DNA of 33,469 nucleotides, from positions 1-33,469 of the forward strand of contig JAAOYB010000032.1 in assembly GCA_018221135.1 (NCBI GenBank), written 5' to 3'. Shown here piece by piece: positions 2,114-33,469 of the stretch (the stretch's first letter is position 1; each line of letters opens with the position of its first letter). The notes below the pieces were generated by a model. That model was not told the origin of the DNA and searched no databases. It was given only the letters and a program-made list of their open reading frames with translations. The position numbers and the translations under genes were made by a program. Source of the DNA: Candidatus Woesearchaeota archaeon. GTDB taxonomy: Archaea; Nanobdellota; Nanobdellia; Woesearchaeales; BM511.

Positions 2114-2116
2114 AAG

Positions 2117-3091: not shown

Positions 3092-3092
3092 A

Positions 3093-4185: not shown

Positions 4186-4192
4186 AGATAAA

Positions 4193-4200
4193 TTTATAAA
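4193..4200 (+). promoter_or_regulatory. TATA-like box for the nucleotidyltransferase gene
   Basis: TTTATAAA ends 42 bases before the GTG at 4243, within an A/T-rich spacer after the preceding stop. This would place transcription start near 4222-4226 and give a leader of about 20 bases. It is predicted from pattern and spacing alone. Confidence 0.4.
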
Positions 4201-4242
4201 GAATTAACCAATCAATTCTCAACAAAAAACACAAAAAATTTT

Positions 4243-5241: not shown

Positions 5242-5284
5242 GAACCCCAATCAATTAAATTATTTTTTTAGAGTTTATAAAAAA

Positions 5285-13144: not shown

Positions 13145-13740
13145 ATGGGTGGCAAAAAAAAGAGTTTAATATTCTTGATAGTTTTACTAATTTTATTTTC
13201 TTGTAGCGTGCTGGGAGTTAATGATATACTCAATGTTAAAATAGACAAATCAACGTATAAACCAAACGAGACCATAACTGTTTCTGGAGAGTTATATGCT
13301 TCTGGCGGCGCAATCCAAGGAGTTAACGTGACAATAACCTTGGATAACACCACCTATTACGTTGCAACAGATAGTAATGGGGAGTTCACAAAAACATTAG
13401 CTGCTCCTAGCCAAGGAATCACTATGTAACTGTTACTTACTCTTCGATTACTATAAACAAAACAATTAGGGTAAGCAACATAAAAAAGATCTTGTCAAGT
13501 ATTATCTCCTCAGAGCAAGAATCCTACAAAGTCATAAGTTATTACGATGACATGGCAAACGCGGGAATAACTGATAACGCGTCACTCTCAGGAAGCCTAA
13601 AATACGCGAACTTAACAGTTAACCAAACAACGTACTACTTAATACTGCAAAAAGAAATCGGAGAAAACGAGTACAAAAACTTATTTGTCAGCGACCAAGC
13701 AGATTTTTTTCTTCTACAAGAAATTCGTTTCTTGAGATAA
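13145..13740 (+). pseudogene. Frameshifted, truncated secreted Ig-like protein
   Basis: The first part (13145-13429) encodes a basic start, a hydrophobic signal sequence (IFLIVLLILFSCSVLG) and an Ig-like or carboxypeptidase-regulatory-like domain (YKPNETITVSGELYASG, then TDSNGEFTKTL). It stops at TAA 13427. The other frame carries on without a gap from 13426 (VTVTYSSITINKTIR) to the stop at 13740. Inserting one T so that ACTATGTAA becomes ACTTATGTAA restores a continuous domain ending (GIT-Y-VTVTYSS), so a one-base deletion is the simplest cause. N-glycosylation-type sequons (NVT, NTT, NKT, NAS, NLT, NQT) occur on both sides of the break. The 3' end runs into the opposite-strand gene, and the last residues (FFLLQEIRFLR) look like nonsense, so the original C-terminus is probably lost near 13700. 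A sequencing error is the alternative for the first break. Confidence 0.7.
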
Positions 13741-14204: not shown

Positions 14205-15035
14205 ATGGAAGAAATCAGTAAGAAAGATGTTTGCGTTGAAGCTTTGAGTAGCTTGACAGGCAAAAAGAATATTTTGTTTACTAGGCGAGGCAACAATAGT
14301 ATAGAGTTAGTCTTAGGTTTGGTTAAGGGGTTAGGTAAAGAAATCGTTTTAATCCAAGACCAGGGGGGTTGGATGACTTACGAAGAATTAGCAGAGAAAC
14401 AAGATCTTAAAGTCATAATTTTAAAGACGAATCTTGGCTTGATAGAGTCCTCGCAGCTAAGTAATTATCACGACGCAGTACTACTTATTAATTCGATGCC
14501 AGCGTATAGCTTCATAGAGGACATGATATCAGTTGAAGTGGAGTGCGAGCAAAACAAGATAATGATAATAAACGATGTTAGTGGAAGCATTGGTAAAGAA
14601 CCTGCTAAGATCGGTGATGTAATCATTGGGAGTTTTGGTCGTTGGAAACCAATCAATATCGGCGAGGGCGGTTTCATCGCGACAGACAACGATAATTATC
14701 ATAGCATCCTCAGCGCTAAGACTCAATTCAACCCAACAGAAGAATTCTTTATCAACTTAGAAAAGAAGTTATCAGGTCTTGGTAGTAGATTGAAGTTTTT
14801 GGAACAAAAAAGGAGCGAGACCATACAAAAACTTCAAGGAGAGGGCTTTGAGGTCTTAATGCCGGAATCAGAAGGGTTGAACGTGATTGTGTGGACTCCA
14901 AACAAAGAAGAAAAAGACAAAGTCAAAGCGTTCTGTGAGAAGAACAAATTAGAATACACTGATTGTCCTAGGGATATCCGCGTTGATGAAGAAGCAATCT
15001 CGATTGAGATTAAACGCATGGATTTGGATGAGTAA
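14205..15035 (+). CDS. PLP-dependent fold-type-I enzyme, DegT/aminotransferase-like
   Basis: A 276-residue protein that looks like a compact type-I PLP enzyme. The opening segment NILFTRRGNNSIELVL resembles the cofactor-phosphate and substrate-binding helix of DegT/DnrJ/EryC1 and related enzymes. D124 in IINDVSGSIG is placed to bind the pyridine nitrogen. K148 in SFGRWKPINIGEGGF sits where DegT-type enzymes keep the Schiff-base lysine, followed by the typical GEGG turn. The C-terminal third (from about 190) has the small-domain pattern (EGLNVIVWTP, then CPRDIRVD). It is shorter than typical DegT proteins (about 370), so part of the large domain is reduced. It is followed 54 bases later by a zinc-ribbon gene, with which it may be linked. 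The reaction is unknown: transamination, dehydration or a non-catalytic role are all possible. Confidence 0.65.
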   Translation: MEEISKKDVCVEALSSLTGKKNILFTRRGNNSIELVLGLVKGLGKEIVLIQDQGGWMTYEELAEKQDLKVIILKTNLGLIESSQLSNYHDAVLLINSMPAYSFIEDMISVEVECEQNKIMIINDVSGSIGKEPAKIGDVIIGSFGRWKPINIGEGGFIATDNDNYHSILSAKTQFNPTEEFFINLEKKLSGLGSRLKFLEQKRSETIQKLQGEGFEVLMPESEGLNVIVWTPNKEEKDKVKAFCEKNKLEYTDCPRDIRVDEEAISIEIKRMDLDE

Positions 15036-17596: not shown

Positions 17597-18433
17597 GTGG
17601 GTAAATTTATATTGGTGCGCAATAAAACTCATAAAAAGAGGCAGACGACTAAAAAACGGGTTTCTTCGACGAAGAAAAAAGAGAATTCTAAGTCTTATCT
17701 AGAGAAGTTTTTCAAGTTAGAACACGAACTCCCACTAGGGATAAGAGTATTAATAGTGTATTTGTTGTTACTATCTTTTTTTTATTTGTTCATCGGCTTT
17801 GGTTTTAGGCGAGCAATGATTTTTGGCTTCATCCTCGAGGGAGGATTAGCTTTTCTTATCAACGCCGCGACTATAGCATTACTCTTATTTATTGTGTATG
17901 GATTCGCAAAAAAAGACGTTAGGCACTACTACGCATCAATCATTTTTTTTGTTCTCATCATCCTTAACACGCTTCTAAGCATCTTCAGTCTTAGACTTCA
18001 AAGCTTTGGAGCTCTCAAGAGTTTTGTCAACGTAAGTTTTTACTTAACACTAATCCTTAACGTGATAACGCTATTATTTCTTTTTAGAAAAAAGTATTAT
18101 TTCATAACGCCAAAACCCGAGTACACAGTTCACTACGAAGACCGCTTCTTTGTCTTGTCAATAGTTGTTATCTGGGTTTTACTCATACTAAGCACTTTTT
18201 ACTACGGAGAAAAATATTATGATGAAAGCTTCCAAACCGCGGACCAATACTTACTAGAACTAAGAGATAGGAGCGTGATTGAAAGCATATCTTATTGCGA
18301 GGAAGTTAGTAACAAAGATTTATGCTATTACATCTCGGCTTTGATAAACAAAGAAGACGCGAACTCACTTAATATGTGCGAGATGATACTAAACCCGATT
18401 TATAGAACAGACTGCAAAACAAGTATAAAATAA
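17597..18433 (+). CDS. Five-TM membrane protein with a four-Cys outer domain
   Basis: First gene of the surface operon, 278 residues. A strongly basic N-terminus (HKKRQTTKKR, then STKKKE) precedes five hydrophobic helices at about 48-68, 74-103, 111-130, 142-162 and 184-203. The last 70 residues form a soluble, helical domain with four cysteines (SYCEEV, KDLCYY, LNMCEMI, RTDCK), regularly spaced and probably paired as disulfides outside the cell. By the positive-inside rule the basic N-terminus is cytoplasmic, so with five helices the C-terminal domain faces outward. The start is GTG 17597; in-frame TTG 17612 or GTG 17615 are alternatives. Five bases separate it from the next gene. The family is not recognised; an assembly or anchor role for the secreted proteins downstream is inferred only from position. 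Confidence 0.8.
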   Translation: MGKFILVRNKTHKKRQTTKKRVSSTKKKENSKSYLEKFFKLEHELPLGIRVLIVYLLLLSFFYLFIGFGFRRAMIFGFILEGGLAFLINAATIALLLFIVYGFAKKDVRHYYASIIFFVLIILNTLLSIFSLRLQSFGALKSFVNVSFYLTLILNVITLLFLFRKKYYFITPKPEYTVHYEDRFFVLSIVVIWVLLILSTFYYGEKYYDESFQTADQYLLELRDRSVIESISYCEEVSNKDLCYYISALINKEDANSLNMCEMILNPIYRTDCKTSIK

Positions 18434-18438
18434 AAAAA

Positions 18439-20583
18439 ATGTTTAAGAACAAAAAAGCGCAGCTAACAATGTTTATCATACTAGGAATAATACTTTTGTT
18501 CTCAGCAGCGCTTTTCTTTTACATAAAAGGCGAGATAATTATTGGAGGAGACTTCGAAGACTTAATTGGGACGACGCCTATGGAAGCCCAGCCAGTAAAA
18601 GAATACGTGGACCAATGCTTGTATAACATCGGAAAAGAGGCCATTATTAGGATAGGTGAGAACGGTGGTTACATAGAGATAGATCCCGCGACGGTTACTA
18701 TAATCCCTGGTAGGCCGACTCTTAGCGAAGGACTAGAAATCGTGCCGAACACCGACATCGTTGTTCCGTACTGGTTTTTTATGAGTAGTGATGATACGTG
18801 TCAGAACGGTTGCGTCTTTGAAGATTACCTAAAGCCTAAACTCAAAAAAACAGGGGTTGATGACTTATTAACAATCGAGGGACAAATCGCTAGTTTCGTA
18901 GAAGAAAACCTAGGCTCTTGCTTAAGAGACTTTGATAGTTTTGAACAAGTAGGGATGAGTGTCAGCGCTTCTAACCCCGTAGCAGACGCAGTCATAGATA
19001 GAGCAAGCAAGTACGTAAGCATAAGATTAAGAATGCCTCTAAGCATAGAGAAAGGAGGAGTCAACACGAGCCTTGAGTACTTCCTCCAAAAATTTGATGT
19101 TGGGTTGTACAATATGTACAACTTAGCAACGCACCTAACGCGTCAAGAACTAAAAAATTATTACTTAGAACAAGTCGTCACTAACTTAATCACGATTTTT
19201 AGCGGTCTTAACAACTCAATCATCCCACCGCCGTACGGCGGAGTAGACTTCTTTTTGAGCAACCCAATACAGACATGGGACAAAAAAGAAGTGAAGCTTC
19301 ACATACAAAATTTTTTGAATCCTTACGTCGCGAATCTCAAGCCCACCAACACATTAGCGATAAGCAAAGTAGTAAACTTAGGAGATGATCAATGGAGTGA
19401 CACAGTAAACAAACTAAACTACGTAATTGATTTGGAACTAGGAGAACTACTTTTGCCTTTTGACGTCCAATTCGTTTACAGCCCGGACTGGCCTATTTAT
19501 TTGGATGTGAGTCCAAGCCTTGGAGACTTCATACTTCCTGACAGGTCTTACCCTACTATTATGACTTTCTTAGGATATGGGTTGACACGCTATGATTTCA
19601 GCTACGATGTTAGCTTCCCAGTACTAATTAAAATAAGTGATGAAGCGGCTTTTAAAGGAGAAGGATATGACTTCTACTTTGCTATGGAGGCGAATCTTAG
19701 AAACAACCAAGCCTTGTTTGCTAGTAACAGCGATAATTATGTCTCAAACGACGAAGCTGAGCAAAGCCTTATCTGCACAGATGAAGCTTCAAAGACTGGA
19801 GACGTCACTATAGAAGTACGTGATTACTTAACACAAGAAGAAATCAGTCATGTGAGTATCTTCAGCGAGTTCGCGGGTGTTAGTTGCAGAGCCGGTGAGA
19901 CTAGCAGTCCTTTTGTTGGTAAACTAAAAGCAGGCATAGGCCACTTAACACTAACCCACCCAGATTATCTTAGTGTCAACAACTTCTTAGTATTAGTTGA
20001 GAACAAGACTTACGATTTTAGTTTTGAGATGTACCCTGAGAAAACACTGAACGTATCTGTTTTTAAGAAGATGATAAGCAAATCAACTGGTTGGGGGATT
20101 AATGACGACCAAGTTTTCAGCGAGGAAGGAAACGAACAAGTAATACTAACTTTTGAGAGAGTTCCTGATGAAGATAGTAAGCAAAGAATCAAAAAAACAG
20201 TTTTTTTCTATGATGATTACAGCCCAAAAAGCGTAAAATTATACCCTGGGGAGTACGAGTTATCAATTGTTTATATGAACACTGATGAATTCACGATACC
20301 AAGAGAAACAAAAAAGGTTGGTCCTTGGTGGAATAGGAAAACCATAACTATCCCAGCGATGGATTTGACATTGGGTTTCAGCTTGGATTATAATGAGTCA
20401 GAATACAACTTACTAATTAGTCCGGATGAATTATATGATAAGAAAGATTTGGAGCTTGGCTTATTAATCCCTGATTTTTATAGGGAACAACAAAGTCTCA
20501 ACTCAAATGATCTTAAAGTCTTAGAGGATATAAGCAAATATCATAAACAAAACTATGAGGAGATAAAACTAGTGCTAAGATGA
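18439..20583 (+). CDS. Large pilin-like surface protein A
   Basis: 714 residues beginning KNKKAQLTMFIILGIILLFSA, that is, a short basic leader, AQLT, then one membrane helix (about 12-34), as in type IV pilin-like exported proteins. The large outer part is mainly beta-rich. Conserved pieces shared with the paralogue at 27771 include VKEYVDQCLYNIGKEA and NGGYIEI (cf. VKNYVEACLRQTAQEA, QGGYAKL), VPYWF, LGSCLRDF, and a later domain with LICTDEASKTGDVTIEV and GVSCRAG, where two Cys likely pair. The C-terminal third looks like transthyretin/carboxypeptidase-regulatory-like beta domains (GKLKAGIGHLTLTHPDY, LNVSVFKK, LYPGEYELSI). The stop overlaps the next ATG (ATGA). The usual pilin Glu5 is absent. 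The function is unknown; it is probably a membrane-tethered envelope or surface component. Confidence 0.82.
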   Translation: MFKNKKAQLTMFIILGIILLFSAALFFYIKGEIIIGGDFEDLIGTTPMEAQPVKEYVDQCLYNIGKEAIIRIGENGGYIEIDPATVTIIPGRPTLSEGLEIVPNTDIVVPYWFFMSSDDTCQNGCVFEDYLKPKLKKTGVDDLLTIEGQIASFVEENLGSCLRDFDSFEQVGMSVSASNPVADAVIDRASKYVSIRLRMPLSIEKGGVNTSLEYFLQKFDVGLYNMYNLATHLTRQELKNYYLEQVVTNLITIFSGLNNSIIPPPYGGVDFFLSNPIQTWDKKEVKLHIQNFLNPYVANLKPTNTLAISKVVNLGDDQWSDTVNKLNYVIDLELGELLLPFDVQFVYSPDWPIYLDVSPSLGDFILPDRSYPTIMTFLGYGLTRYDFSYDVSFPVLIKISDEAAFKGEGYDFYFAMEANLRNNQALFASNSDNYVSNDEAEQSLICTDEASKTGDVTIEVRDYLTQEEISHVSIFSEFAGVSCRAGETSSPFVGKLKAGIGHLTLTHPDYLSVNNFLVLVENKTYDFSFEMYPEKTLNVSVFKKMISKSTGWGINDDQVFSEEGNEQVILTFERVPDEDSKQRIKKTVFFYDDYSPKSVKLYPGEYELSIVYMNTDEFTIPRETKKVGPWWNRKTITIPAMDLTLGFSLDYNESEYNLLISPDELYDKKDLELGLLIPDFYREQQSLNSNDLKVLEDISKYHKQNYEEIKLVLR

Positions 20584-23500
20584 TGTTTACAAAAAAAAAA
20601 AGAGCGTTATTGATGATTTTTTTGATAATCACTATCCCATTTATTAGTGCTAGCGCGCTTGCCGAACTAAACATAATCTATGCTGGGGGAGAAGGCGCAA
20701 GTGATGGTTACATCGGAAGCGAAGATAGATTAGTTATTAATGTTACAGCTACGCAAAGCGTCATCAAATTCCCAGAAGCCCCGAACACTCCTTATATAGG
20801 GGTGTTGAATCCGAGTACTGGCTTGTACTCTTTTAATTTGGTTGACGGGGAAGAAACTTCTTATTATGAGGAAAGCTTTGAATTCGAACTCGTAGGGTAT
20901 GATACTAGTAATAACCCAGTAGTTGGTAGTAGTGACACGGCAAGGGTAGTAGTTGATAACACCGCGCCGGTTGTGAGCTTCTCAGTTGAGCAATCAATAA
21001 GTGATAAGAAACCTTATATTACAATTACAAGCGCGCAAGACCCAGAAAACCTTTACGGTGAGTGCAGCGGGGTTAGAAGCATCAAAGTAGTGAGTAGTTC
21101 TCAAGTGATTCAAACATTAGATGTTGAGACAAGCTTTGGAAACTGCCAAGAAATCGCGTCTTTTACAAGAGAATTAAGCTTGGCTAGCAGCGGGACTTAC
21201 AGGCTCAGCGTGTTAATAGAAGACAACACTGGCAACACTTACGAAACACAAGCTCAAAGATTCGATTATGACGACGATGCACCCATAGCTACGAGTAGTC
21301 TTTTTGAGATGTACTACCACGGCACAAAAAGACCAGTCTCTGCTCTTAGCACAAGAAACGTAGTTGACATATTAGTCGACGTGTATTTTAGGATTAGGGA
21401 CCCAAACCTTGATGTTAGTAGCGTAGAAGCAGACCTTAGAAGCCTAAACGCTAACACGTTTACTGACATGCCTTATTCAGAGATACCTTTTGATTGCGTT
21501 GAGAGCGGCACAGCTAGTGTTTATGATTGCACAAGCGCGCCAACCACTAATTTCCCGAGTGGTCTTCCTCTTTCCATAATTGCTAGTGGGAGCGGGAACA
21601 TAGTATTAGACGCAACTGTTAGTGCTAGTGACTACTTTGGCTACTCTAATAATGATATTAGTCTTTCAAAAACAATCATTATAGATAATAATAAGCCAAG
21701 AGCACAGAGTATCGGCACGGGGTATTGCAAGCAAAGCACTTGTTATGTTAGTAGCGATGCTAACATCATCGTTATGCGAACTGAAGGGATAGGAACAAAA
21801 ACTTTGAACAACAGAGGGGTTACTTTGTACGTTGGACGCTTATCAACCAACCAAGTACTAGTGCCTTATGAGTGTAGCGGTATTGGTGGTAGTGTTTGGG
21901 AGTGCAAATACTTTGTTAGTACTAGCTCAAATCTTAACGAAGGAGAATCAGTTGATGTCTACCTTACTAGTCCTAGTTATGATGATTTAGGAAACCCTTT
22001 CGAGGATTTTAGTGACACCGTAGTTGTTGATAGCATCGCCCCAGCGGATGTAGAAGCAAAGTTTTTTAGTAAGGCTAGCAACGCTCCCTACCTCTTAGAA
22101 GGAGATAATGTAAGAGTTGTCTTAACAGCTAGCGATGCTACGAGTGGGGTGAGAGCGGCAACACTTGATTTTAGCAGCGTTGATGAATCAAAAAGCGAAG
22201 TCTTCACTACATGCGAAGAAATTAGTGGTTCTGAGTATGAGTGTGTTTGGAACACGGGACTCGTTGCGTGGACACCAGGGAATCACGATGTAGACTTCGT
22301 TGTTGAGGATTACGCAGGTAACAAGGCAAGGTATACTAGCAGTCTTGAGATTTTAGTCAACGCTGATTACGCAGCTGATTTTTGGAGTTTTGAAAGCGTA
22401 ACCATCACTCCTTCTACTGGTGTTGATGTAGTAACGCTTCCTTACTTCCCATCTGACTACGCTCAGGTCTGGGTGAGCCCAACGCTTGATGGCGATCCTT
22501 ATGCGAGAATTCTTAGCGTTGATTTCTTAACCAGTACTAAGTGCGTTTTGTCAGAAGAAGACCAGGAAGAGTTTGAGAATGTTCTTAGAACCGCGAAAGT
22601 TTTTAGGAAAACGTATGCTTACACTGATGGGAGCAACTTATTGATTGAAGTTGAATTAATAAAAGAGCAGCTCGGCATCGCGGCTAATGAAATCTTAGAA
22701 AACGAAGACATTAATCAAGGTGATAACTTCACTTTAACTTATACTTGTCCTCTTAGTATTGTGAGTGCTAAGCAAGGAAGATTATTCCCTGCTCAGAATC
22801 TGAACTTAACGTTTTCTATTCCTGTGTTTAGCAGCCAGTACATGGCTGGGCACGCATTGCAAAAAAAGATTGATGACAAGAAAGAAAGTCTTAGAAAAGA
22901 CAAAATCATCGATGAGCTTAATGATTACATGGAGATGCTCCAAGAAATCTGTGGGTTTTGGAACGCCGCGGTAACCGCGTATAAAGGCATCAATATCTTG
23001 ATGGGAGTGACTGCTACGGCTCTTGAAGCAGTTGGTATTACGTGGAGTATTGGTAAAGGCCTCCAAGCAGCGGATTGGGGAGTAGCTATAGGCCTTGATA
23101 AAGTAGCGGTTCTCATGGGTTATCTTTGCGGGTTTGCGCAATGCACGCTTTGGCCTAACTTCATAGAAAAAACAGTTATTGACACAGGAGGCATGGAGAC
23201 TGGTAAAAGAATAGTTTTTCAATTAATGCTCGGATACACTGATGAGGAAGGCTTAGGCAAACTTGTTGGCGAGCTTAACGGAGGGTATTACGAGACTAGC
23301 AAGAAGAGCATCTTGTATAGTATAATCTTTTTGTGCATCCCAGGATTAATTTATAATTTGAAGCAGAGCAGAAACATTGATTGCCAGTACGTTTATTGTT
23401 TGGAGACCGAGGTCTCCGAGAACGGCATGCAACCTTACGCTTGCGATGCTAGAAAAGCGTACGCGAAGTGCTTATTTGTGTACGGCCAAGTTTTTAACAG

Positions 23501-23768
23501 CTTGCCTTTCAGTCAAGTACTAAACGCGTTTAGTAATCTCATAAGATTATTCGCTGATAACCCCTTAAGCGCGCTTGGAGGAGTATTAACCGTTGCTTGT
23601 AGTGGTTGGTTTGGCATGCCTGGTTGGCTTGAGAGTACTTGTATTAATGTTAACATGGTCACTGACGCAATTGATACCGTTAGAGGAATAGGTGACTTTT
23701 TTGATTACTTAAAAGGTGATAGGCCTGACCCGGCAAGGGATTATTGTGAGGAAATAGGAGTAAATTAG
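20580..23768 (+). CDS. Giant secreted Ig-domain protein with Cys-rich helical C-terminus (copy 1)
   Basis: 1062 residues. A lysine-rich start and a hydrophobic signal (LLMIFLIITIPFISASALA) direct export; ATG 20583 is an equally good start. At least four Ig-like beta domains follow, their boundaries marked by DNTAP (126), DDDAP (231), DNNKP (369) and DSIAP (484), in the style of bacterial Ig-like domains that read DxxAP. After about residue 600 the protein changes to a helical domain with hydrophobic helices and many cysteines: C850-x4-C855, FLCIPG, NIDCQYVYC, C940-LETEVSENG, YACDARKAYAKC and FVYGQVF. This domain recurs in the protein at 29760. A run of eleven A residues lies in codons 4-8. 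It overlaps the preceding gene by four bases and abuts the next. A surface-exposed adhesive or structural role is inferred. Confidence 0.85.
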   Translation: MMFTKKKRALLMIFLIITIPFISASALAELNIIYAGGEGASDGYIGSEDRLVINVTATQSVIKFPEAPNTPYIGVLNPSTGLYSFNLVDGEETSYYEESFEFELVGYDTSNNPVVGSSDTARVVVDNTAPVVSFSVEQSISDKKPYITITSAQDPENLYGECSGVRSIKVVSSSQVIQTLDVETSFGNCQEIASFTRELSLASSGTYRLSVLIEDNTGNTYETQAQRFDYDDDAPIATSSLFEMYYHGTKRPVSALSTRNVVDILVDVYFRIRDPNLDVSSVEADLRSLNANTFTDMPYSEIPFDCVESGTASVYDCTSAPTTNFPSGLPLSIIASGSGNIVLDATVSASDYFGYSNNDISLSKTIIIDNNKPRAQSIGTGYCKQSTCYVSSDANIIVMRTEGIGTKTLNNRGVTLYVGRLSTNQVLVPYECSGIGGSVWECKYFVSTSSNLNEGESVDVYLTSPSYDDLGNPFEDFSDTVVVDSIAPADVEAKFFSKASNAPYLLEGDNVRVVLTASDATSGVRAATLDFSSVDESKSEVFTTCEEISGSEYECVWNTGLVAWTPGNHDVDFVVEDYAGNKARYTSSLEILVNADYAADFWSFESVTITPSTGVDVVTLPYFPSDYAQVWVSPTLDGDPYARILSVDFLTSTKCVLSEEDQEEFENVLRTAKVFRKTYAYTDGSNLLIEVELIKEQLGIAANEILENEDINQGDNFTLTYTCPLSIVSAKQGRLFPAQNLNLTFSIPVFSSQYMAGHALQKKIDDKKESLRKDKIIDELNDYMEMLQEICGFWNAAVTAYKGINILMGVTATALEAVGITWSIGKGLQAADWGVAIGLDKVAVLMGYLCGFAQCTLWPNFIEKTVIDTGGMETGKRIVFQLMLGYTDEEGLGKLVGELNGGYYETSKKSILYSIIFLCIPGLIYNLKQSRNIDCQYVYCLETEVSENGMQPYACDARKAYAKCLFVYGQVFNSLPFSQVLNAFSNLIRLFADNPLSALGGVLTVACSGWFGMPGWLESTCINVNMVTDAIDTVRGIGDFFDYLKGDRPDPARDYCEEIGVN

Positions 23769-24581
23769 ATGAGTAGTCAGAGTTTCGGAGGAAAAATAAT
23801 AAAAACCGATGATGGTTGGATGACTTTCCTAATCTTAACACTAGTCTTGTTATCGACTAGTTTCTTCACTCTTAATTATTTGAAGATACAAGCTGAGAGT
23901 TACCTTGTTCCTCTACAGGAAGAATTGATTGATGGGGACGATTCTGGTTTTGGTGTTTTTGACATACGAGACGATGATGATAAGCCTCGCGAAGAAACTA
24001 GTAGTGGCGGTTACGTTGAGGCACCAAAAGACTTGAAGACTTTATTAGAAGAGAAGAAAAGAGCGGAATCAGTTAAGAGAGACGAAGATACACGTCCTAG
24101 CTTGGATGATTACGAGACTAGCTTTGAGACCGAAGAGGTTAGTGATGGAGGCGTTCCTATGAGCACCGCCGCCGTTGTTAAAGACGCGTTCTTTGTTGTC
24201 AACCACGCCTTTACTTATGATAACGTTTTTAATCCTGAAGAAGCGTACGACACAACTTTTAGTGAGGGAACAACGATTTACTTATTCGTTGAGATGTACA
24301 ACTTACAAGAAGACCTAAATGGTGATATCGACTTAGCAATTGATTTTTTATTAAAGAATGAGGATAATCGTGTTATCCCTGGTTACGACGCCCAAGACTT
24401 AGTAGTCTACAAAGGAAAACCACCATATAAAGATGGGTATTTCTTGGCTAGGATGAGAATCCCTCTAGGATTAGATTTCAACCCAGGCAAGTACTACACA
24501 GACCTAGTAATACGAGACAAAGTAAGTGGCAAGATAAGAAAAGAAAAATATTTGTTTAGGATAAGACAAGAAACAATATGA
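23769..24581 (+). CDS. Single-pass membrane protein with outer beta-sandwich domain
   Basis: 270 residues. A short N-terminus is followed by one membrane helix (about 17-38, WMTFLILTLVLLSTSFF). A charged linker rich in Asp, Glu and Lys covers about 55-125 (DIRDDDDKPREE, LLEEKKRAES) and is probably disordered or helical. The last 130 residues are a predicted beta sandwich: FFVVNHAFTYDN, TTIYLFVEMYNL, YFLARMRIPLGL, FNPGKYYTDLVIRD and SGKIRKEKY. The pattern of PG-x-Y followed by V-I-x-D and SGK is common in Ig-like accessory domains of secreted archaeal and bacterial proteins. It starts directly after the stop of the giant protein and overlaps the next gene by ATGA, so tight co-translation is likely. 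No catalytic motif is present. Its partner is unknown. Confidence 0.8.
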   Translation: MSSQSFGGKIIKTDDGWMTFLILTLVLLSTSFFTLNYLKIQAESYLVPLQEELIDGDDSGFGVFDIRDDDDKPREETSSGGYVEAPKDLKTLLEEKKRAESVKRDEDTRPSLDDYETSFETEEVSDGGVPMSTAAVVKDAFFVVNHAFTYDNVFNPEEAYDTTFSEGTTIYLFVEMYNLQEDLNGDIDLAIDFLLKNEDNRVIPGYDAQDLVVYKGKPPYKDGYFLARMRIPLGLDFNPGKYYTDLVIRDKVSGKIRKEKYLFRIRQETI

Positions 24582-26932
24582 AGAAAACAAAAAAGATAAT
24601 AACTAATTTATTGATAATAATAATCTTATCACTAGGAGTTTATGGTGCTTCTTATAAGTACGCTTTAAATGGTGATATAATAGTAACTGTTGCTGAAAGA
24701 GAAATAAGATACGACCAAACCAATGTTTTAACTGATGATTGGAAATGGGTATATCAATCCGCGGATAATGAATATTACACTTTTGATGGAACTAGAGTAA
24801 ATAATGATGGAACATTATTTGTACCAACACAAACAGACATGCGGATTGAGAGTCAGATTCTTGGCGTACAAGTTCATGTTAGTGAACAAATACCAACTTA
24901 TGCGGTTAGTCCAAGCGCAGGTGCAGGTATTAGTTACTCTGATTTTGAATCGGACAAAATCGATAATATTCAAGGGGGTTCTGTCATAAGCAAAACAGAC
25001 GATTACATATATTTTGTTCCTGATGGACAAAACTATGCTTATAGGATGGATGTATATCCTGTTGATGATAAGACATACGTATCTTACACAGATAACGAAG
25101 GTAAAACAACATACTTCGAACAACAAAGCACAAGTTATGATATTCTTGCTTCTGATGATATTCTTACAGCAGGGGATTATAGTTATATAATAACAAGTAG
25201 CTCAGATGGTTTGGCTACTGAGATTTATGATCCTAAAACAAAAGAAACTATAAGTTTGTCAGAGTCAAGCATAGAGATTAATGGAATACAAGCTTTCTTA
25301 GTTGAGGATACGTGGGGTGGGGCTCCGATAGCTGTTTGTCCAGATGGAAGTTGTTATACCAATGAACATGGAGTGGTATTAGATTCAGAGGGGAATTACA
25401 TCGCTTATATCGATGAAGGTGTTTTTGGCGGAGATGAAGTGATGCCTGTAGGAAGCGACGGATTAGTTGATGGAAAATATATTCTTACTCCTACTGGTTT
25501 AGTGAGAGTAAGTGGTGAGCCTGTTGGCAATAAGTATTATGATTCTTCAGGAAAACTTATTGGTGTAAAATATGAGGGCAAAGTTTATCCTCTAGTAAAT
25601 GGGTACATGATACCAGACCCTTCAGGAGAAGGATACATTGGATACTATAACGAAGATCAAAACGCAGTCATAACCGAAAAAGACATAAATCAAAATACTA
25701 TTAAGATAGGAAACAAAGAATATCAAAGCATAACATATAATGGAAGAGAAATAGGGGCCATTGTGAACGGGCAAGTATTAAGAAAAGATGGCGACACATA
25801 CGTTGATAGTTCTGGCACTGTAAAAGCTGCTAAGATAGGTAATGAGTTCGGAATAGTTGATGGGCGCGGAGTAGTGAGAGGAGAAGATGATAAACCCTTA
25901 GCAATAGTTCAATACGAATGCGAGAACTGCGATGACGACGACCCCACTAATGATAACCTACAAGCTAACTTAGAAACAGGTAGTGATGCTTTAACTGTTA
26001 GTAATCGTTTTTTGAGTGAGTGGGGGAGCCAAGCAGCTATTAGGCGTTACCAGTTAGAAAGAGAGCAACAAGATCAGACTTGGGGTTTGTTTAACTTAAT
26101 GGCTGAGACTGTCCAAACCGCTAGGACTCTAGGGAGTTTAGGAGCCGCTTTTGGATGGGGAGATCAAGAAGACCCCTGGCTTGAAGGAGTAAGCGAACTA
26201 GCTGATGTTTTCAGCCCAGACGCGTGGGCAGAGAGCGAATGCGACTACCCATTCGATTACCAAACCCCGACAAATGTGTTAATAACAGGCGATGACGACG
26301 CAGCGTTAGTAATAGAAGGAAAAAGAACCAACCACTCAAACTACGTTACTTGCGAGGACATAACAGGCGCGGATAACGACACCATGTGCGAAGAAGCCTT
26401 CGAAGCGTTTGGCAAAAGCGAAGACGTGAAATGCTCAGACGGCCTATGCGTAGACAAAACCAACACTAATTGGGATGTACCAGTAGAAGCACAATACTAC
26501 ATCTATATCATAGAACTAATAATCAGCGCGCAAGACGACATATACTACTCAGACGAAAACGACGACTTAGAATTCAAACTAATGCTAAGACCACGAAGCA
26601 CGAGGCTTGACTTAAACAGAGACGGAGTAAGAAACGACTCAGACACCATAAAAGTCAAGAAAGGCGAGACTATAAGATTGATTAACCAAGACCAAATAGC
26701 GTTTTTCCTACCAATAAACGCCACTAATACGTACGACGAAGTATGCGTGGAATTCACACAAAGACCAGATAAACTAGGAGACTTACTAAAAGATTATGGA
26801 GGAAGCAGTAAGAACTTGTTTTGCACAAACTTCGTCATAGACAGAGAAATCAACCCAGACAACAATAATAACTTATTACTCTACGAAATAGGAGGGATCT
26901 CAATACCAGTAACGGTGATGGTATTAATATGA
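24578..26932 (+). CDS. Secreted repeat protein of 784 residues, two-part composition
   Basis: A lysine-rich start and hydrophobic segment (IITNLLIIIILSLGVYGAS) give a signal peptide. Residues to about 445 are beta-hairpin repeats rich in Tyr, Gly, Asp and Ser: GNKYYDSSGKLIGVKYEG, DTYVDSSGTVKAAKIG and VVLDSEGNYIAYIDEG share a (Y/V)DS-x-G-x(3-5) core. The second half (about 450-784) is helical then beta-rich, with Trp-rich WGLFNLMAETVQ and WGDQEDPWLEG and cysteines (SECDYPF, YVTCED, TMCEEAF, VKCSDGLCVD). It contains LDLNRDGVRNDSD, which resembles a calcium-binding DxNxDG loop, and ends IPVTVMVLI. The first half is visibly more A+T-rich (33% G+C in one counted line, against 52% in a line of the second half), suggesting a fusion. 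ATGA overlaps join it to both neighbours. Function unknown. Confidence 0.82.
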   Translation: MKKTKKIITNLLIIIILSLGVYGASYKYALNGDIIVTVAEREIRYDQTNVLTDDWKWVYQSADNEYYTFDGTRVNNDGTLFVPTQTDMRIESQILGVQVHVSEQIPTYAVSPSAGAGISYSDFESDKIDNIQGGSVISKTDDYIYFVPDGQNYAYRMDVYPVDDKTYVSYTDNEGKTTYFEQQSTSYDILASDDILTAGDYSYIITSSSDGLATEIYDPKTKETISLSESSIEINGIQAFLVEDTWGGAPIAVCPDGSCYTNEHGVVLDSEGNYIAYIDEGVFGGDEVMPVGSDGLVDGKYILTPTGLVRVSGEPVGNKYYDSSGKLIGVKYEGKVYPLVNGYMIPDPSGEGYIGYYNEDQNAVITEKDINQNTIKIGNKEYQSITYNGREIGAIVNGQVLRKDGDTYVDSSGTVKAAKIGNEFGIVDGRGVVRGEDDKPLAIVQYECENCDDDDPTNDNLQANLETGSDALTVSNRFLSEWGSQAAIRRYQLEREQQDQTWGLFNLMAETVQTARTLGSLGAAFGWGDQEDPWLEGVSELADVFSPDAWAESECDYPFDYQTPTNVLITGDDDAALVIEGKRTNHSNYVTCEDITGADNDTMCEEAFEAFGKSEDVKCSDGLCVDKTNTNWDVPVEAQYYIYIIELIISAQDDIYYSDENDDLEFKLMLRPRSTRLDLNRDGVRNDSDTIKVKKGETIRLINQDQIAFFLPINATNTYDEVCVEFTQRPDKLGDLLKDYGGSSKNLFCTNFVIDREINPDNNNNLLLYEIGGISIPVTVMVLI

Positions 26933-27720
26933 AACTATTCAAAAACAAAAAGAAGAAATCTTTTTTTGGCTTTGACAAAAAAAAGTTTTTGCAAGTCTTA
27001 CTAATAGATTTCGGCAGCTTAGTAATCTTAGTGTTGTTTTTGTTATTAATGCTTAGTATCTTCTCAGCTTTTATTCCAACACAAGGAATAAGCCCTGATG
27101 ATTTCAATTTGAAAAGCACAGATGAATTACTAGATTATAAGAATAGTCTTCGAATATATGGCTTCGCGTTTTTTACAAGTATAATAACGATGTTGTTAGG
27201 CTCGGTATTCTTGTACAACGCTTCAAGAAAACTATTATGGGAGAAGATAGTAAATGATAAGTACAGTTTTAAGGGTTTTTGGAAGTACTTCGCATACAAC
27301 ACGACATTAACGATGACTCTCTCATTAATAGCTGGGCTGATTTATTTATTAATCAATCTTTTTTTTGGGTTGATAACATACCTTACTAGCAGCATCCCAT
27401 TCTTAGTAATGGAGTTCCTACAAAAAATCATACCAATAACAATATTATTCTACGCTGTGATGGCGTATTCATACTTGCTCAACGCTTACTACTTTGAAAA
27501 CAAAACCAAAATAAAAAAAGCAATAAAGAAAACAAAGGAGTACAACATAAAAAAATTAATTATGCCCTCACTATTAGTTTTGCTGATTAATTACGTCTTA
27601 ACCTACGCTAATTACTACGTCACTGGAAGTAATGAGTTAGTGTTTAGCATAAGTTCACTACTAATATTTTCGGTGCAGATTAGCTTGTACAAAATAGTTG
27701 TGTATGAGAACACAAAATAA
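26929..27720 (+). CDS. Six-TM membrane protein of unknown function
   Basis: 263 residues with a basic N-terminus (KNKKKKSFFGFDKKK) and six predicted helices near 24-50, 78-99, 123-147, 164-187, 208-226 and 234-256. The first loop (FIPTQGISPDDFNLKSTDELLDYKN) faces outward if the N-terminus is inside. A basic, helical loop between helices 4 and 5 (NKTKIKKAIKKTKEYNIKK) would be cytoplasmic. No motif of known transporters, peptidases or export channels is seen. It overlaps the 784-residue protein by ATGA and is followed by a 50-base gap with a weak TATA-like box, so it closes the middle group of the operon. It could assemble or export its neighbours, but that is inferred from position only. Confidence 0.8.
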   Translation: MKLFKNKKKKSFFGFDKKKFLQVLLIDFGSLVILVLFLLLMLSIFSAFIPTQGISPDDFNLKSTDELLDYKNSLRIYGFAFFTSIITMLLGSVFLYNASRKLLWEKIVNDKYSFKGFWKYFAYNTTLTMTLSLIAGLIYLLINLFFGLITYLTSSIPFLVMEFLQKIIPITILFYAVMAYSYLLNAYYFENKTKIKKAIKKTKEYNIKKLIMPSLLVLLINYVLTYANYYVTGSNELVFSISSLLIFSVQISLYKIVVYENTK

Positions 27721-27726
27721 GAAAAG

Positions 27727-27734
27727 TATAAAAA
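27727..27734 (+). promoter_or_regulatory. Possible internal promoter before the second pilin-like gene
   Basis: TATAAAAA lies 36 bases before the ATG at 27771, in the only gap above 10 bases within the operon. The gap is purine-rich and may carry a second transcription start for the second module. The evidence is pattern only. Confidence 0.3.
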
Positions 27735-27770
27735 CCAAAGAAAACCAAAAGAAAAAGAGAATAAGAAAAA

Positions 27771-29753
27771 ATGTTTGTTAAAAAGAGGAAGGCACAAGTA
27801 ACGCTTTTTATAATCATAGGGATGGTCCTACTAATTAGTGTCTTAATCTATTTTGGTATAGAAGGAAAACTTTCCTATTTCGACCCCGAAGCGATTATCG
27901 CACCGGATAAAACAGCGGTTAAGAACTATGTTGAGGCGTGTCTGAGGCAAACCGCTCAAGAAGCAGTTACCTTAGTAGCGTTTCAAGGAGGCTACGCGAA
28001 ACTAACAGATCGCTTCGAGCCGCACCAAGGAGGAAACTACCAAGAATTCGTTGGTGGAGGCTTCAAAATACCTTATTGGCACAGCAACGGAATAGACTTC
28101 ACACCCACAAGAGAATTACTAGGCAAAAACATCGCGTTGTACATTGACAGCAGATTAAACGCGTGTTTACAAGACTTAGAACCTTTAAGAGCAGTATATG
28201 ATGTTAACGCGACAAAACCACCAAAGAGCAGTGTTAGTATAGGGAGGGGGAGGATAACAGTAGACTTAGACTACCCAGTGCTTCTTCGAACACTCAAAAA
28301 AAGAGGGGATACACTCGTTAATGATTACAGAACCAGTGTTAACAGCCAAATATTCGAAGCGTACGACCTAGCAAAACTCATCAGGGATGACTACATAGAA
28401 AACAACAGGTTATACAATTTTACCATGGAGATAATAGCTGGGAGCGAACTCCCATATAAAGGTTACGAGTTCAACTGTCATGATAGGACTTGGAGCATGA
28501 CTGAGTTAGAACAAGAATTTAACTCATTAACAAACGCTAATCTAAGATTCATAAAATACGTTAACACTAGAAACGCCGAGTTCGAAACAGAGTACCCTGC
28601 TTGTGCAGAGCCCGGAGTATGTGATTATACCAGAAGCGAATATTATGATAAGCGTTACTTACTAGATGTCGGAGCAGATGATAAACACAAACGCTTTAGT
28701 GTTAGTATCACTCCTTTTAGTACTACTCGTTTTGAGGTTTTCCCAAACACGGGAGGTTTTGTTAAAAGCTTAGACATACAATTACCTGTTGTTGGGAACT
28801 TAATAGATCCTTGCGTTAACTTATTCAATCACTTCTACACAGTGGACTACGCGGTTAAGTACAGCATCACAGATGAGGATGGGCTGCGGTTTAACTTCAT
28901 ACTACCTGTTAATGTGTTGTACAACGACCAAAAAACGACGTTTAGCTTATACAACCCTTATTTTGATGATGACATATTATATTATATGAACAACACTCTT
29001 AGCGTCACAAATTATTGTCAAGGCGCAGAGCACGAAGTAGTAGTCGTAGTAGAAGACAAGGTGAGTGGCAAAGGAATACTAAACGCGAGTCTTTATTACG
29101 AGTGCATAAGTTTTAGGTGCGCAGTAGGACAAACAGACTATATACGAACCAGGCATGGAATAGTGATTAGTAGGACTACCTTACTTCGAGGGATGTTCCC
29201 AGAGTGCATTAATGGAAACTTAATAGTAGACGCAGAGAATTACATCCCAAGAAACGATATAGTCCTAACACCTAGAGAACAATTAGACTCTTTGTTGGTA
29301 CAACTAAAACCAATCGTTGAAGTCCCCGTGAGTTTTGAGAGTGTTAGTTATAACGCTCAAGGCGTAGCAAGCATCACTGACTACTTAGACGAAGACAGCT
29401 ACATCATAGTATTTGTTACAAACGACGATATTCCACACAGCGAAGCATCAACTTTTGTTCCAGGCCAAGGCATGTCCTTGTCTGATTTTAAGATAAGAAT
29501 CCCTCTTAATGACTCATACGAAAACAATATAACAATAGATGTCAAAGTAATAGACGAAGCGACGTCGATAAGCACCGCTGGGTATTATTACAAAGGAACC
29601 TTTGATGGCCGTAGTCTTAGCATAGCAGAGAACATAGAATTAGTCTTAATAACCCAGAGGCCTCAGCCGACCACGCAAGACGCGATGATTGACATGTACA
29701 AAGACGTAGTATTTGAGTACTCAGACCGCTTCAGGCCAAAAATAAACTACTAA
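27771..29753 (+). CDS. Large pilin-like surface protein B (paralogue of the 18439 gene)
   Basis: 660 residues starting VKKRKAQVTLFIIIGMVLLIS: a basic leader, AQVT, then one membrane helix (about 12-32). The order of features follows protein A: VKNYVEACLRQTAQEAVTL and FQGGYAKL, KIPYWHS, LNACLQDLEPL, a central part with paired cysteines (YPACAEPGVCDY), the YAVKYSITDEDGLRFNF strand pair (cf. YDFSYDVSFPVLIKISDE), then NYCQGAEHEVVVVVED with YYECISFRCAVGQ. It ends with beta domains (VPVSFESVSYN, NNITIDVKVID). Identity to protein A is low but the landmarks are collinear, so they are ancient duplicates. Like A, it is followed directly (six bases) by a giant Ig/Cys-rich protein. It is probably membrane-tethered by the N-terminal helix and exposed outside; its role is unknown. 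Confidence 0.82.
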   Translation: MFVKKRKAQVTLFIIIGMVLLISVLIYFGIEGKLSYFDPEAIIAPDKTAVKNYVEACLRQTAQEAVTLVAFQGGYAKLTDRFEPHQGGNYQEFVGGGFKIPYWHSNGIDFTPTRELLGKNIALYIDSRLNACLQDLEPLRAVYDVNATKPPKSSVSIGRGRITVDLDYPVLLRTLKKRGDTLVNDYRTSVNSQIFEAYDLAKLIRDDYIENNRLYNFTMEIIAGSELPYKGYEFNCHDRTWSMTELEQEFNSLTNANLRFIKYVNTRNAEFETEYPACAEPGVCDYTRSEYYDKRYLLDVGADDKHKRFSVSITPFSTTRFEVFPNTGGFVKSLDIQLPVVGNLIDPCVNLFNHFYTVDYAVKYSITDEDGLRFNFILPVNVLYNDQKTTFSLYNPYFDDDILYYMNNTLSVTNYCQGAEHEVVVVVEDKVSGKGILNASLYYECISFRCAVGQTDYIRTRHGIVISRTTLLRGMFPECINGNLIVDAENYIPRNDIVLTPREQLDSLLVQLKPIVEVPVSFESVSYNAQGVASITDYLDEDSYIIVFVTNDDIPHSEASTFVPGQGMSLSDFKIRIPLNDSYENNITIDVKVIDEATSISTAGYYYKGTFDGRSLSIAENIELVLITQRPQPTTQDAMIDMYKDVVFEYSDRFRPKINY

Positions 29754-29759
29754 AAGAAA

Positions 29760-32700
29760 ATGAATAAGAAAACAGCGCTACCAATTTTTGTAATTCTTTT
29801 ATTAGTTAGTTTCGTCTCCGCAGACATAAATAATCCCAACATAAACGTGGGTGTTAACTACGCTGAGATTAACTGGACTAGTACGTCTCTTGAAGCGGGT
29901 CAAGTTTTCTGGGGCGAAGTAATCCCAAGCAACACAGAACAAGAAACCACGCCGACGTTAGCGCACTCAGTCAGGATTAATAACTTGGATCCCTCCACCA
30001 CTTATTTTTATCGGGTTCATAGCGGAACAGATTACTATCCTGGGATTAGCTCATCTAATAATTTCACAACTCTCCAAGCAGGAGTAATTAACCAAAACAG
30101 GATAAGATTAACATTAGACCAAAACCTCGCGGTAACCACTTATTCTAACCAGACCACATACGCTATTAGTGGCACGACAGAAACAGATACTCGAATCAGG
30201 GTTTACAGATACCTTAACGGGTTACCAAACCAAGTAGGCATGACATTGCCTGGTGGAAGCGTTGTTTATCGCATAGACACCCCTCTTAGTGGCGAGTTCG
30301 AATTTGAGATAAGCTTAGTTGAGGGCGCCAATGATTTCATGATAGAATTCTTAAACCCAATAACTTATGATCGAGAGCAAAGAAATTTTAGCGTGACCGC
30401 TGATTTCACGGAGCCAAACGCTCAGTTTGTTAGTCTAAGAACTGATTACAGCCAAGAAACCTATAAGTTACTTGGAGTAACTGATACTAACACGACTTTC
30501 GAAGTGTTTGTCGATGGAGCATTCAAGCAAAGAATCACTTTGAACAACCCAACTACTAACACAACAAATTATTTTACTAGTCAAGGATTATTTTTGCCTT
30601 TATCTTATCTTTATTTTAATACTAGTGTTAACGTAGGCGTTGACGGCCTTCATAACCTAAGCTTTGTCTTTACTGACATGGCAGGAAACGTAAACACCGT
30701 AAACATAGATGATATCTTTTTTGATAGCGAAGAGCCCGAAATCATAAATATTAGTATTAGCACGATTACTGATGCGCCTATAAGCGCTGAATTATGGACG
30801 CCTTTCAACCCAGTAACGATAAGAGGATACGTAAGTGATAACAGCAATAGTAAACTAACTGTTATTATCAAAAACGCTTTTAACAATAGTCGTTTCAGCT
30901 TCGATGACGAATTAGAAGAAAACGATCAAGGAGGCTTTGACCACTCATTATTCACACAAGTCCCTGGTATGTGGAGCACCTTGCTAGGTGAGGATGGGGA
31001 TGTCATAACACTAAACGGTAACGGCTGGTTCGAGCTTGACTTGTACTTGATGGCACCAAACATCCTAGACGAACCACCAGAGACCAAAAAAGATAACAAC
31101 GTCTTTTTCAGAGTGGTAGACCAAGCAGGAAACATCGAAGATGACTACGAGACCATAACGTATGAGCCTACAAGCACGGTTTGGGGTATTAACACCCAAG
31201 AAACAGATCCTAACGAGATATACAGTAGTTGGTTAATCCACGCGGATTACCCAGCTCAGTTAATGTTTGAATTAGTCTTTCACGAAAGCGTAAACTTCGA
31301 AGATATAGAATTATTAAACATCAATTTCTTACCATTAGATGATGGGTACGACCAAATAACTAAAGAGTTAAGAATAAGAATGGATGACGCCCAAGCTAAT
31401 CTTATAAGAAACGATGACTTGCCAGGCTACTTGGTCATATTGCCTTTTGAACTCGCGCAGAACAGAGATGCAAACGAGTTATTGTATGAGAAGGATAGTA
31501 TGCAGTTCAACATAAAACTTGAAATCGATTATAGTTATAAAAAAGAGGGGCAGCCAAAACAAACCCAGTACGTCCAAGCAGTTTTCAGTCCTCAGACACC
31601 TTATGATTTTAGCAAGTTCTTAACACCAGAAATCGTAAGAAACACATTAATACCTACTTTTACTGACGCGAGGGATTTTGTTGGTAAACTAAGCAATTTC
31701 ACTTATGATAATATAATCAAGCCAGGCCTCCCGATTTGTGTTGTTTTAATGGCGTACAACGCGGTTAAGAACTATGTCAACCCGCTTGAGACTTTCACTG
31801 CGAGTACTAATGATCCGGCGTTGAAGCTTATGAAAGTTGTTTGCGACAGAATTTTTTGTCCGGTGGTCCCGCCAAAAGGACCAAATGATGATAGCGTCCT
31901 TGGTTATAGTCCTAATGTTGGCAGTCAGTTTAATGACTTAGGCGTTTATCGCGAGGGCGGTTTTCTTAATAGGCGTGAGACTCCGTGCAACCCTACCGTC
32001 GTGAATTTTGGAAACACAGTTAACCCTATACAATCAGCTCTTATGACCACGCAACAAGTAGGCGTCTACACAGTTAATAGCTTAGCAACAGGTCTTAGCA
32101 CTAAGAGGTGTTATAGTAATAGTTACCCGTTCTACGATGACCTTAAGTGTTTGTTTAATAAGGGCGGAGGAGACACTGATAAGAACCCGATGCGCGACTT
32201 AGTAGATAGTGTTCAGTGCGGATGTGCTGGTGGGTTCTACTTACAAACTCAGCGCATAGTTAGGCACTTAGACGAAGTCCTGGACTGCTTAGAGAAGTTG
32301 GAGAACGGAGATGTCGACGCAGGGTATTGCGAGGCAATCCTTGCTACTAGTGCTTGCGAATTATTTCAGTACGTATTCGAAAAAATAATTGAGAAAAGAT
32401 ATGATACCAAGATGTACAGTACTCGAGACGCTGTTGGGAAACTAACTCTTAGCGAGATGAAAAACAGTTACGGCGACGCCATAACAAGAGTTACCGCGGG
32501 TGAGTTCACCGCCGCTAGCATAGTCCATAAGAGTTGCATGCTTGCTTTAGGTATGGATATCAGCGATTTCAATGCTTTATTAGATAACGCTATCGGCGCG
32601 CAAGACGTAGAGCCAAAAGTTGGGCCTGTCGTCGTGCAAAGCCACCTTAATAGCGTCAACGAAGCTGACAGGACGCTTCAAATCCAGTACAAGTACACTC

Positions 32701-33469
32701 CTTACATACAAGCAGGTCTGGGTAGTGATGTGACTGCTAAACTAATAATGTTTTGTGACCCAGAAGGAATCGACTCCGAATATTGTCCTCTCAGACGTGA
32801 TGAGAGCGTCAAGATTAACTTAGGCCAAATCGCTAAGGGCACGACTCTTAGCACCACTGGTGTTTACAACGACGCACCCGACGCCAAAGTCTGGTACAAC
32901 AAAGCATTCATCGAATACACTTATCGCGACAGAGTATTAGAAGACATTGACAGCGTGGAATACAGATGCGTCCCGAACAATTCATGTATAGGTGCTGGTG
33001 GTTCGTTGCAGCCTGGTTACGAAGCTAGTCTCGGCTGCTCTTCAGAGCAAGAGGCTTGCGGGTTTAGAACTATCACTAGCCAAGCAACCCCGGAATACGT
33101 CACTAAGACAACTGAGCCTTTCGACATAATACACCGCGGCGGTATTAAGTTTGGTTGCATCTTTGACCTTAACACCTACGGCGGGTTCTACTGCGGATTA
33201 GGTGATGAATCGTTGCCTAGCGCGAACATGGAATTAGAAGACGCAGCAATGGCTCAGGCAGGAACGTTTTATCAGGGTCAAGACGTAGTAGCATTCCTAA
33301 CACTTAATAAGCGTCAGTTTAACAAAGAAAACTTCATAGTAAGATACGAAATAATGGATAGGAACGGCAACCCAAGAGGCGACGGATTAGAAATCTTTAA
33401 CACGCAAGAAGTTTTTAAGTGCCCGTTCGGCGGAGTTGGCGAAACACCAGAACTAGTACTCCCAGTAAC
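29760..33469 (+). CDS. Giant secreted Ig/fibronectin-like protein with Cys-rich C-terminal domain (copy 2, 3' partial)
   Basis: The frame opened by ATG 29760 has no stop before the window ends, giving at least 1236 residues. I checked the frame at several points and it stays open. A signal peptide (NKKTALPIFVILLLVSFVSA) is followed by a fibronectin-III-like domain (NWTSTSLEAGQVFWG, LDPSTTYFYRVHSG). More Ig-like domains follow (FTDMAGNVNTVNIDDIFFD, ISTITDAPISAE, VDQAGNIEDD). From about residue 640 it turns helical and cysteine-rich: V-C695-DRIFC700-P, QCGCAGG, C843-LEKLENGD, YCEAILATSACELFQYVFEK. This domain matches that of the 20580 protein. Later cysteine pairs (CSSEQEAC, CIFDLNTYGGFYC) and an ending that is still open suggest a further outer domain. 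It is the second module partner of pilin-like protein B. Confidence 0.85.
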   Translation, partial: MNKKTALPIFVILLLVSFVSADINNPNINVGVNYAEINWTSTSLEAGQVFWGEVIPSNTEQETTPTLAHSVRINNLDPSTTYFYRVHSGTDYYPGISSSNNFTTLQAGVINQNRIRLTLDQNLAVTTYSNQTTYAISGTTETDTRIRVYRYLNGLPNQVGMTLPGGSVVYRIDTPLSGEFEFEISLVEGANDFMIEFLNPITYDREQRNFSVTADFTEPNAQFVSLRTDYSQETYKLLGVTDTNTTFEVFVDGAFKQRITLNNPTTNTTNYFTSQGLFLPLSYLYFNTSVNVGVDGLHNLSFVFTDMAGNVNTVNIDDIFFDSEEPEIINISISTITDAPISAELWTPFNPVTIRGYVSDNSNSKLTVIIKNAFNNSRFSFDDELEENDQGGFDHSLFTQVPGMWSTLLGEDGDVITLNGNGWFELDLYLMAPNILDEPPETKKDNNVFFRVVDQAGNIEDDYETITYEPTSTVWGINTQETDPNEIYSSWLIHADYPAQLMFELVFHESVNFEDIELLNINFLPLDDGYDQITKELRIRMDDAQANLIRNDDLPGYLVILPFELAQNRDANELLYEKDSMQFNIKLEIDYSYKKEGQPKQTQYVQAVFSPQTPYDFSKFLTPEIVRNTLIPTFTDARDFVGKLSNFTYDNIIKPGLPICVVLMAYNAVKNYVNPLETFTASTNDPALKLMKVVCDRIFCPVVPPKGPNDDSVLGYSPNVGSQFNDLGVYREGGFLNRRETPCNPTVVNFGNTVNPIQSALMTTQQVGVYTVNSLATGLSTKRCYSNSYPFYDDLKCLFNKGGGDTDKNPMRDLVDSVQCGCAGGFYLQTQRIVRHLDEVLDCLEKLENGDVDAGYCEAILATSACELFQYVFEKIIEKRYDTKMYSTRDAVGKLTLSEMKNSYGDAITRVTAGEFTAASIVHKSCMLALGMDISDFNALLDNAIGAQDVEPKVGPVVVQSHLNSVNEADRTLQIQYKYTPYIQAGLGSDVTAKLIMFCDPEGIDSEYCPLRRDESVKINLGQIAKGTTLSTTGVYNDAPDAKVWYNKAFIEYTYRDRVLEDIDSVEYRCVPNNSCIGAGGSLQPGYEASLGCSSEQEACGFRTITSQATPEYVTKTTEPFDIIHRGGIKFGCIFDLNTYGGFYCGLGDESLPSANMELEDAAMAQAGTFYQGQDVVAFLTLNKRQFNKENFIVRYEIMDRNGNPRGDGLEIFNTQEVFKCPFGGVGETPELVLPV

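Follow-up and report, generated by a model that had tools for sequence, protein, structure and literature searches.

Here we show that eight genes (A to H) filling the end of a contig from a Woesearchaeota archaeon are a conserved gene cluster of Woesearchaeota and not a chance run, since dozens of genomes carry these families in the same arrangement. We give about even weight to the reading that these genes encode a cell-surface complex whose core, a membrane anchor (G) paired with a giant secreted protein (H), is kept across the class, with the B-C pair and D to F present at the level of the order. By comparing domain content across lineages, we infer an envelope-anchored contact complex that would face bacterial walls in at least some of them.

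The contacts of Woesearchaeota and Pacearchaeota with other cells are largely unknown, and nearly all of these organisms are uncultured. Together, the class-wide anchor-giant pair, the B-C pair of the order and the recurrent murein hydrolases give a defined set of proteins for localisation and testing.

The window, i.e. the whole stretch of DNA analysed here, is one entire contig (33,469 bases) from a genome (G000) assembled as 62 contigs totalling 1.05 Mb; the terms order and class refer to those of this genome. Because the window is the whole contig, H is cut at its end and the sequence downstream is unreadable in this genome. Gene calls are mechanical open reading frames (ORFs). Loci were mapped using profiles built from the window's proteins, which gave 21 loci in 20 genomes, window included; eight genomes of other orders, two G112 loci, 16 further stretches and seven loci picked for SLT matches were then added. 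The counts 43, 30/36, 19, 124 and 17 reported below were tallied by hand from the result tables.

The row spans positions 17597-33469 and comprises eight plus-strand ORFs whose neighbours overlap or lie at most 50 bases apart (Table 1). From A to H, the junctions consist of a 5-base gap, a 4-base overlap (20580), an abutment (23769), two further 4-base overlaps (24578 and 26929), a 50-base gap, and a 6-base gap. Hydropathy yielded the transmembrane (TM) counts given for A, D, and F, a single N-terminal segment each in B and G, an N-terminal signal in H, a signal or TM segment in C, and both an N-terminal signal and a hydrophobic C-terminal end in E. Among A-H, scans with Pfam and NCBIfam detected neither an ATPase (T2SSE included) nor a platform protein, sortase, peptidase, or glycosylation enzyme; on function, they yielded weak Ig/fn3-type matches to C and H and nothing more. 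Pfam matches to DUF998, DUF6799, and DUF373 in A, E, and F scored below the cut-off and were rejected. The original prediction, which had described a one-strand row joined by ATGA overlaps, abutment, and gaps not exceeding 50 bases, with every product bearing a membrane or signal segment and no ATPase, sortase, peptidase, or glycosylation enzyme recognisable, agrees with the ORF coordinates, the hydropathy of A-H, and both profile scans.

Table 1. Genes of the cluster in the window, with strand and predicted product.
Gene	Position	Strand	Product
A	17597-18433	+	5-TM protein with Cys motif at the C-terminus; first gene after metG
B	18439-20583	+	Membrane anchor with large ectodomain and an N-terminus of prepilin type (KAQL, Phe at +5); paralogous to G
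C	20580-23768	+	Secreted; about 5-6 Ig-like domains, then a Cys-rich C-terminal domain
D	23769-24581	+	Single TM segment and one small beta-rich-looking domain
E	24578-26932	+	Secreted; variable N-terminal part, conserved C-terminal domain of about 280 aa (residues 475-763)
F	26929-27720	+	6-TM protein, usually just before G
G	27771-29753	+	Membrane anchor, prepilin-type N-terminus (KAQV, Phe at +5); class-wide anchor of the G-H pair
H	29760-33467, frame open to contig end (33469)	+	Giant secreted fn3/Ig and Cys-rich protein

Three other regions of the window are recorded here. Genes reading as glycogen synthase-like, galT-like, nucleotidyltransferase, and amylo-alpha-1,6-glucosidase (GDE_C) are grouped at 332-7141, possibly as a glycogen metabolism cluster. 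A broken secreted Ig-like gene occupies 13145-13740, its signal-peptide frame stopping at 13429 and a stretch in another frame starting at 13492, and probably represents decay of a surface gene or a frameshift introduced by assembly. The short DegT/DnrJ-type aminotransferase-like protein at 14205-15035 (276 aa) matches just positions 126-196 of the 360 in the Pfam profile.

Within the window's order the usual gene order is B, C, (D), E, F, G, H, often preceded by metG and often followed, after H, by a 6-TM gene resembling F. The series B, C, F-type gene, G, H is found at 19 loci, in some of them interrupted by additional genes (G000, G002, G009, G010, G015, G034, G037, G054, G298, G159, G335, G209, G303, G125, G180, G218, G330, G246, and G200). 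H lies directly 3' of G in 43/43 loci where the pair was found (other orders, 12/12), and C directly 3' of B in 30/36; the B-C and G-H parts are separated in G007, G016, and G022. By coordinates alone, an anchor, C, and a second anchor are collinear within roughly 16 kb in 16 genomes, most of which were later inspected. The A family was present in 5 of the 21 loci first mapped, and homologues of D were found in six other genomes. In other orders, the G-H pair lies near genes reading, by eye, as Lsm, S8e, L44e, and TFIIB. Gene order is conserved among the related genomes mapped, so the original prediction passes the check that it had proposed, under which a lack of conserved order would have refuted it.

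Some copies are interrupted. H occupies two ORFs (339 and 1769 aa) at locus L169 of G246, possibly through a frameshift. G is split behind its membrane segment in two genomes that belong to a single genus (G200, L174:15543-17468, and G335, L156). The parts measure 64 + 558 aa and 73 + 565 aa, and one genome carries an in-frame TGA, the other TAG; decay, readthrough, and a true two-part protein are alternatives that we leave unranked.

The anchor ectodomain profile matched 310/371 genomes of the phylum (213/243 of the good ones), and 124 of these belong to other orders. The C domain was detected in 160/371, just three of them outside the order. Each of eight other-order genomes examined closely encodes one full-length anchor and usually adds short proteins with the anchor's first domain alone. 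When named genomes were scanned with a 6-row C-terminal alignment, 27/27 matches came from Woesearchaeota, Nanoarchaeota/Nanoarchaeia, or unplaced archaea.

B and G belong to one family. In a maximum-likelihood tree of 49 rows, B-type proteins stand apart from G-type proteins, while G proteins of the order cluster together (98/98) and are joined to eight other-order proteins (100/100); the tree was rooted by midpoint and thus leaves the timing of the duplication unsettled. A giant Cys-rich protein is encoded next after 26/26 members of the group uniting G with the other orders, and after 0/23 of the remaining rows. When profiles were aligned using hhalign, the C-terminal profile of C matched H (P 2.8e-5, probability 74), and the H of other orders matched both H (P 8e-14, probability 98) and the C profile (P 2e-5, probability 77), with all three matches falling on the same C..GI...CL......C motif. 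The C-H link is a motif match over 61-76 columns at 74-77% probability, and homology of C and H is likely, short of proven, because the match in C is short. The cluster therefore likely combines an ancestral G-H pair with a paralogous B-C pair, an arrangement of two related pairs plus D, E, and F that the original prediction had not noticed.

The model of C contains five or six Ig-like domains and a helical Cys-rich end, the latter at low confidence, in which 13 cysteines are kept in at least 19 of 20 homologues. Foldseek matches of C are generic Ig, S-layer, and complement strings, including the S-layer proteins EA1 and SbsB, and were set aside as functional evidence; by sequence, the C domain gave chance-level matches only against solved structures. 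In the window's order H contains fn3 and Ig-like domains, and across the class it measures about 1300-2700 aa and carries a signal. The proteins in the E position seem unrelated between genomes, yet 22/26 have in common a C-terminal domain about 280 residues long. In G014, in whose cluster no separate E gene was found, a match to this domain (profile positions 33-261, E 3e-14) stands at the end of C. VKOR, sought as a disulfide partner, had no match in the window's genome.

A strict class III motif fits 28/33 B/G N-termini, with Gln at +1 in 33/33, and the residue at +5 is Phe in 30/33, Tyr in 3/33, and Glu in none, whereas Glu occupies this position in three pilins encoded by the window's genome. 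The AlphaFold2 model of G (pLDDT 82) shows a TM helix (residues 6-34), a break, and a second helix (45-71), followed by a beta-rich ectodomain with a transthyretin/carboxypeptidase-D-like domain; its helices are separated, unlike the single long N-terminal helix of a pilin. Type IV pilins were absent from the significant Foldseek matches of this model, a sequence search of solved structures returned no relative of B or G, and neither sequence nor fold linked the anchors to pilins or PilY1. Given the missing Glu5, the split helix, and the lack of a solved relative, B and G look like prepilin-type anchors and not filament subunits. The description pilin-like, as used in the original prediction, accordingly suits most of their N-termini but neither the residue at +5 nor the ectodomains, which are unlike those of pilins.

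Pilus machinery is encoded elsewhere in the genome: one A24 prepilin peptidase (C3:17484-18362) and three T2SSE ATPases (contigs C12, C27, and C53) with TadC/FlaJ-like neighbours. T2SSE was present in 44/44 anchor-positive genomes tested, a uniformity that deprives it of discriminating power on pilus dependence; this co-presence is compatible with dependence of the anchors on pilus machinery without demonstrating it. That the row is not a standard pilus, archaellum, or secretion operon, as had been proposed, holds insofar as the machinery lies outside it, and the row may be linked to type IV pilus machinery through the peptidase and ATPases. Contigs C53 and C13 (loci L104 and L107) appear to have a common sequence end and, combined, encode a T2SSE ATPase, two TadC-like proteins, and a class III pilin; a third B/G-family protein, cut, lies beside the pilin and TadC-like genes on C13 (L107:2738-4225). 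A second ATPase/TadC-like locus on C12 (L105:5871-18912) encodes two large surface proteins of fn3/Ig-like type (746 and 1086 aa) along with small proteins resembling pilins.

Peptidoglycan-cutting domains occur in H proteins of other orders and in some E proteins of the window's order. Among eight other-order H proteins, an SLT domain is present in three and an M23 peptidase domain in one (G338, HxxxD/HxH intact). SLT was found in ORFs of about 1,700-2,731 aa from at least 17 other-order genomes among the matches listed. At seven loci the SLT-bearing H directly follows G (G122, G168, G115, G204, G069, G249, and G316), and the catalytic Glu and GL(M/I)Q motif are visible in the six sequences inspected (G122, G168, G204, G069, G249, and G316). 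In the window's order, the SLT domain is located close to the N-terminus of E in G295 (3,407 aa), G200 (2,227 aa), and G055 (790 aa), each time in an E that comes after C. Among the E and H sequences of alignment A10, one more carries an Amidase_2 domain. No hydrolase domain was detected in A-H of the window (for H, in its readable part), in most E proteins, or in order-level H (0/13, alignment A3). Since domain positions differ and two different proteins carry it, the distribution suggests repeated recruitment of hydrolase domains. To our knowledge archaea have no murein of their own, so the target of these murein hydrolases should be bacterial, and bacteria are indicated as partners for at least some lineages. 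Outside the cluster, the window's genome also encodes a 467-aa lytic transglycosylase on contig C10 (L180:6803-8206) that bears a twin-arginine-like signal and an ES...GLMQ motif of catalytic type.

In the complex that we favour, B and G are predicted to be processed by the genome's prepilin peptidase, and would then either stay membrane-bound as anchors or cap a type IV filament. C and H would attach to them outside the cell and project Ig/fn3 arms, A and F would serve as membrane organisers, and E as an exchangeable head; in lineages with SLT or M23, the complex would face a peptidoglycan-bearing partner. The window's own copy likely has a contact or adhesion role, since its readable part contains no hydrolase domain. 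Gene order and the one fusion, of the E domain to C in G014, suggest that the products associate physically. Of the envelope or host-contact complex originally proposed, the conserved envelope complex stands, and host contact is the best-supported reading. Near-universality in the class and housekeeping neighbours fit a structural envelope role equally well. A bolder version, in which the cluster would encode a class-wide archaeal contact weapon or feeding apparatus that is prepilin-anchored, carries exchangeable heads, docks on bacteria, opens their wall, and is unrelated to known secretion systems or pili, we regard as rather improbable.

The strongest rival, owing to the near-universality of the pair in the class, is an S-layer-like scaffold in which G is the stalk and H the outer lattice, as SlaB and SlaA are in Sulfolobales, with B-C a second layer and the hydrolases decorations; we rate it as unlikely on balance while giving it serious weight. 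Adjacency of a stalk and a giant protein throughout the class, the single full-length G in each of the eight other-order genomes checked, and the Foldseek matches of G (best match SlaB, 8qox, E 1.5e-5) and of C (EA1 and SbsB) speak for it, but TM-scores of 0.11-0.19 are those of generic beta-sandwich strings, and a Cys-rich core with exchangeable hydrolases is unusual among S-layers. Codon bias, taken as a proxy for expression at S-layer level, gave no signal and is uninformative here because ribosomal genes are equally unbiased.

Alternatively, B and G could cap a filament built by the distant ATPases, with C and H as tip adhesins, making the cluster a tip or minor-pilin complex of a type IV pilus. 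Prepilin-type N-termini without Glu5, the peptidase and three ATPases of the genome, the B/G-family protein beside pilin and TadC-like genes on C13, and the ubiquity of T2SSE in anchor-positive genomes are in keeping with this, whereas the cluster lacks an ATPase, a platform protein, and a major pilin, the G model breaks after its TM helix where a pilin has one long helix, and no pilin or PilY1 match was obtained by sequence or fold; we judge this explanation to be distinctly unlikely. Least credible, with little probability in our estimation, is a loose set of unrelated, co-regulated surface proteins that do not form one complex. The separation of B-C from G-H in three genomes would suit such a set, but the invariable G-H adjacency across the class, the relatedness of the pairs, and the E-C fusion argue against it.

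Several known systems resemble the cluster in part. SlaA/SlaB of Sulfolobales comprises a membrane stalk and a giant outer protein encoded side by side. The stalk-giant pairing recurs here and G has a weak Foldseek match to SlaB, but the TM-score of G with SlaB is 0.14-0.19, there is no sequence similarity, and the cluster has a Cys-rich core and hydrolase domains. In bacteria, GspK is a large prepilin-like protein without Glu5, and PilY1-type systems encode large adhesins together with minor pilins. B and G are likewise large, prepilin-like, and without Glu5; however, no homology was found, and the cluster is archaeal, consists of two related pairs, and has no motor genes nearby. With archaeal type IV pili and archaella (Makarova et al. 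2016, PMC4858521), the cluster shares the class III motif of B and G and a genome encoding the peptidase and ATPases; it differs in lacking an ATPase, a platform protein, and a major pilin, in the Phe/Tyr at +5, and in B/G ectodomains of about 600 aa with no sequence or fold match.

The closest described component is fam00969 (Castelle et al. 2021, PMC8204110), a family from Woesearchaeota and Pacearchaeota whose proteins reach 3,000 aa and bear a murein-like transglycosylase domain. Compared by description, H probably overlaps this family: size, extracellular location, transglycosylase domain, and taxa fit other-order H and some Woesearchaeota E, whereas H of the window's order is without SLT in 13/13 cases, and the portions of that paper available to us do not describe the anchor G, the pairing, B-C, or the rest of the cluster. 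Large lytic transglycosylases have been reported in Woesearchaeota (Vigneron et al. 2022, PMC9723730) and peptidoglycan hydrolase homologues are reported to be prominent in Nanoarchaeota (2025 paper, PMC12352652). A largely open-access literature search gave no account of the anchor, the pairing, or the cluster. Since no known family accounts for its core, we regard the cluster as new as a system, with one component flagged before and a function that is proposed here, and the giant hydrolase family noted earlier is now placed in a defined gene neighbourhood.
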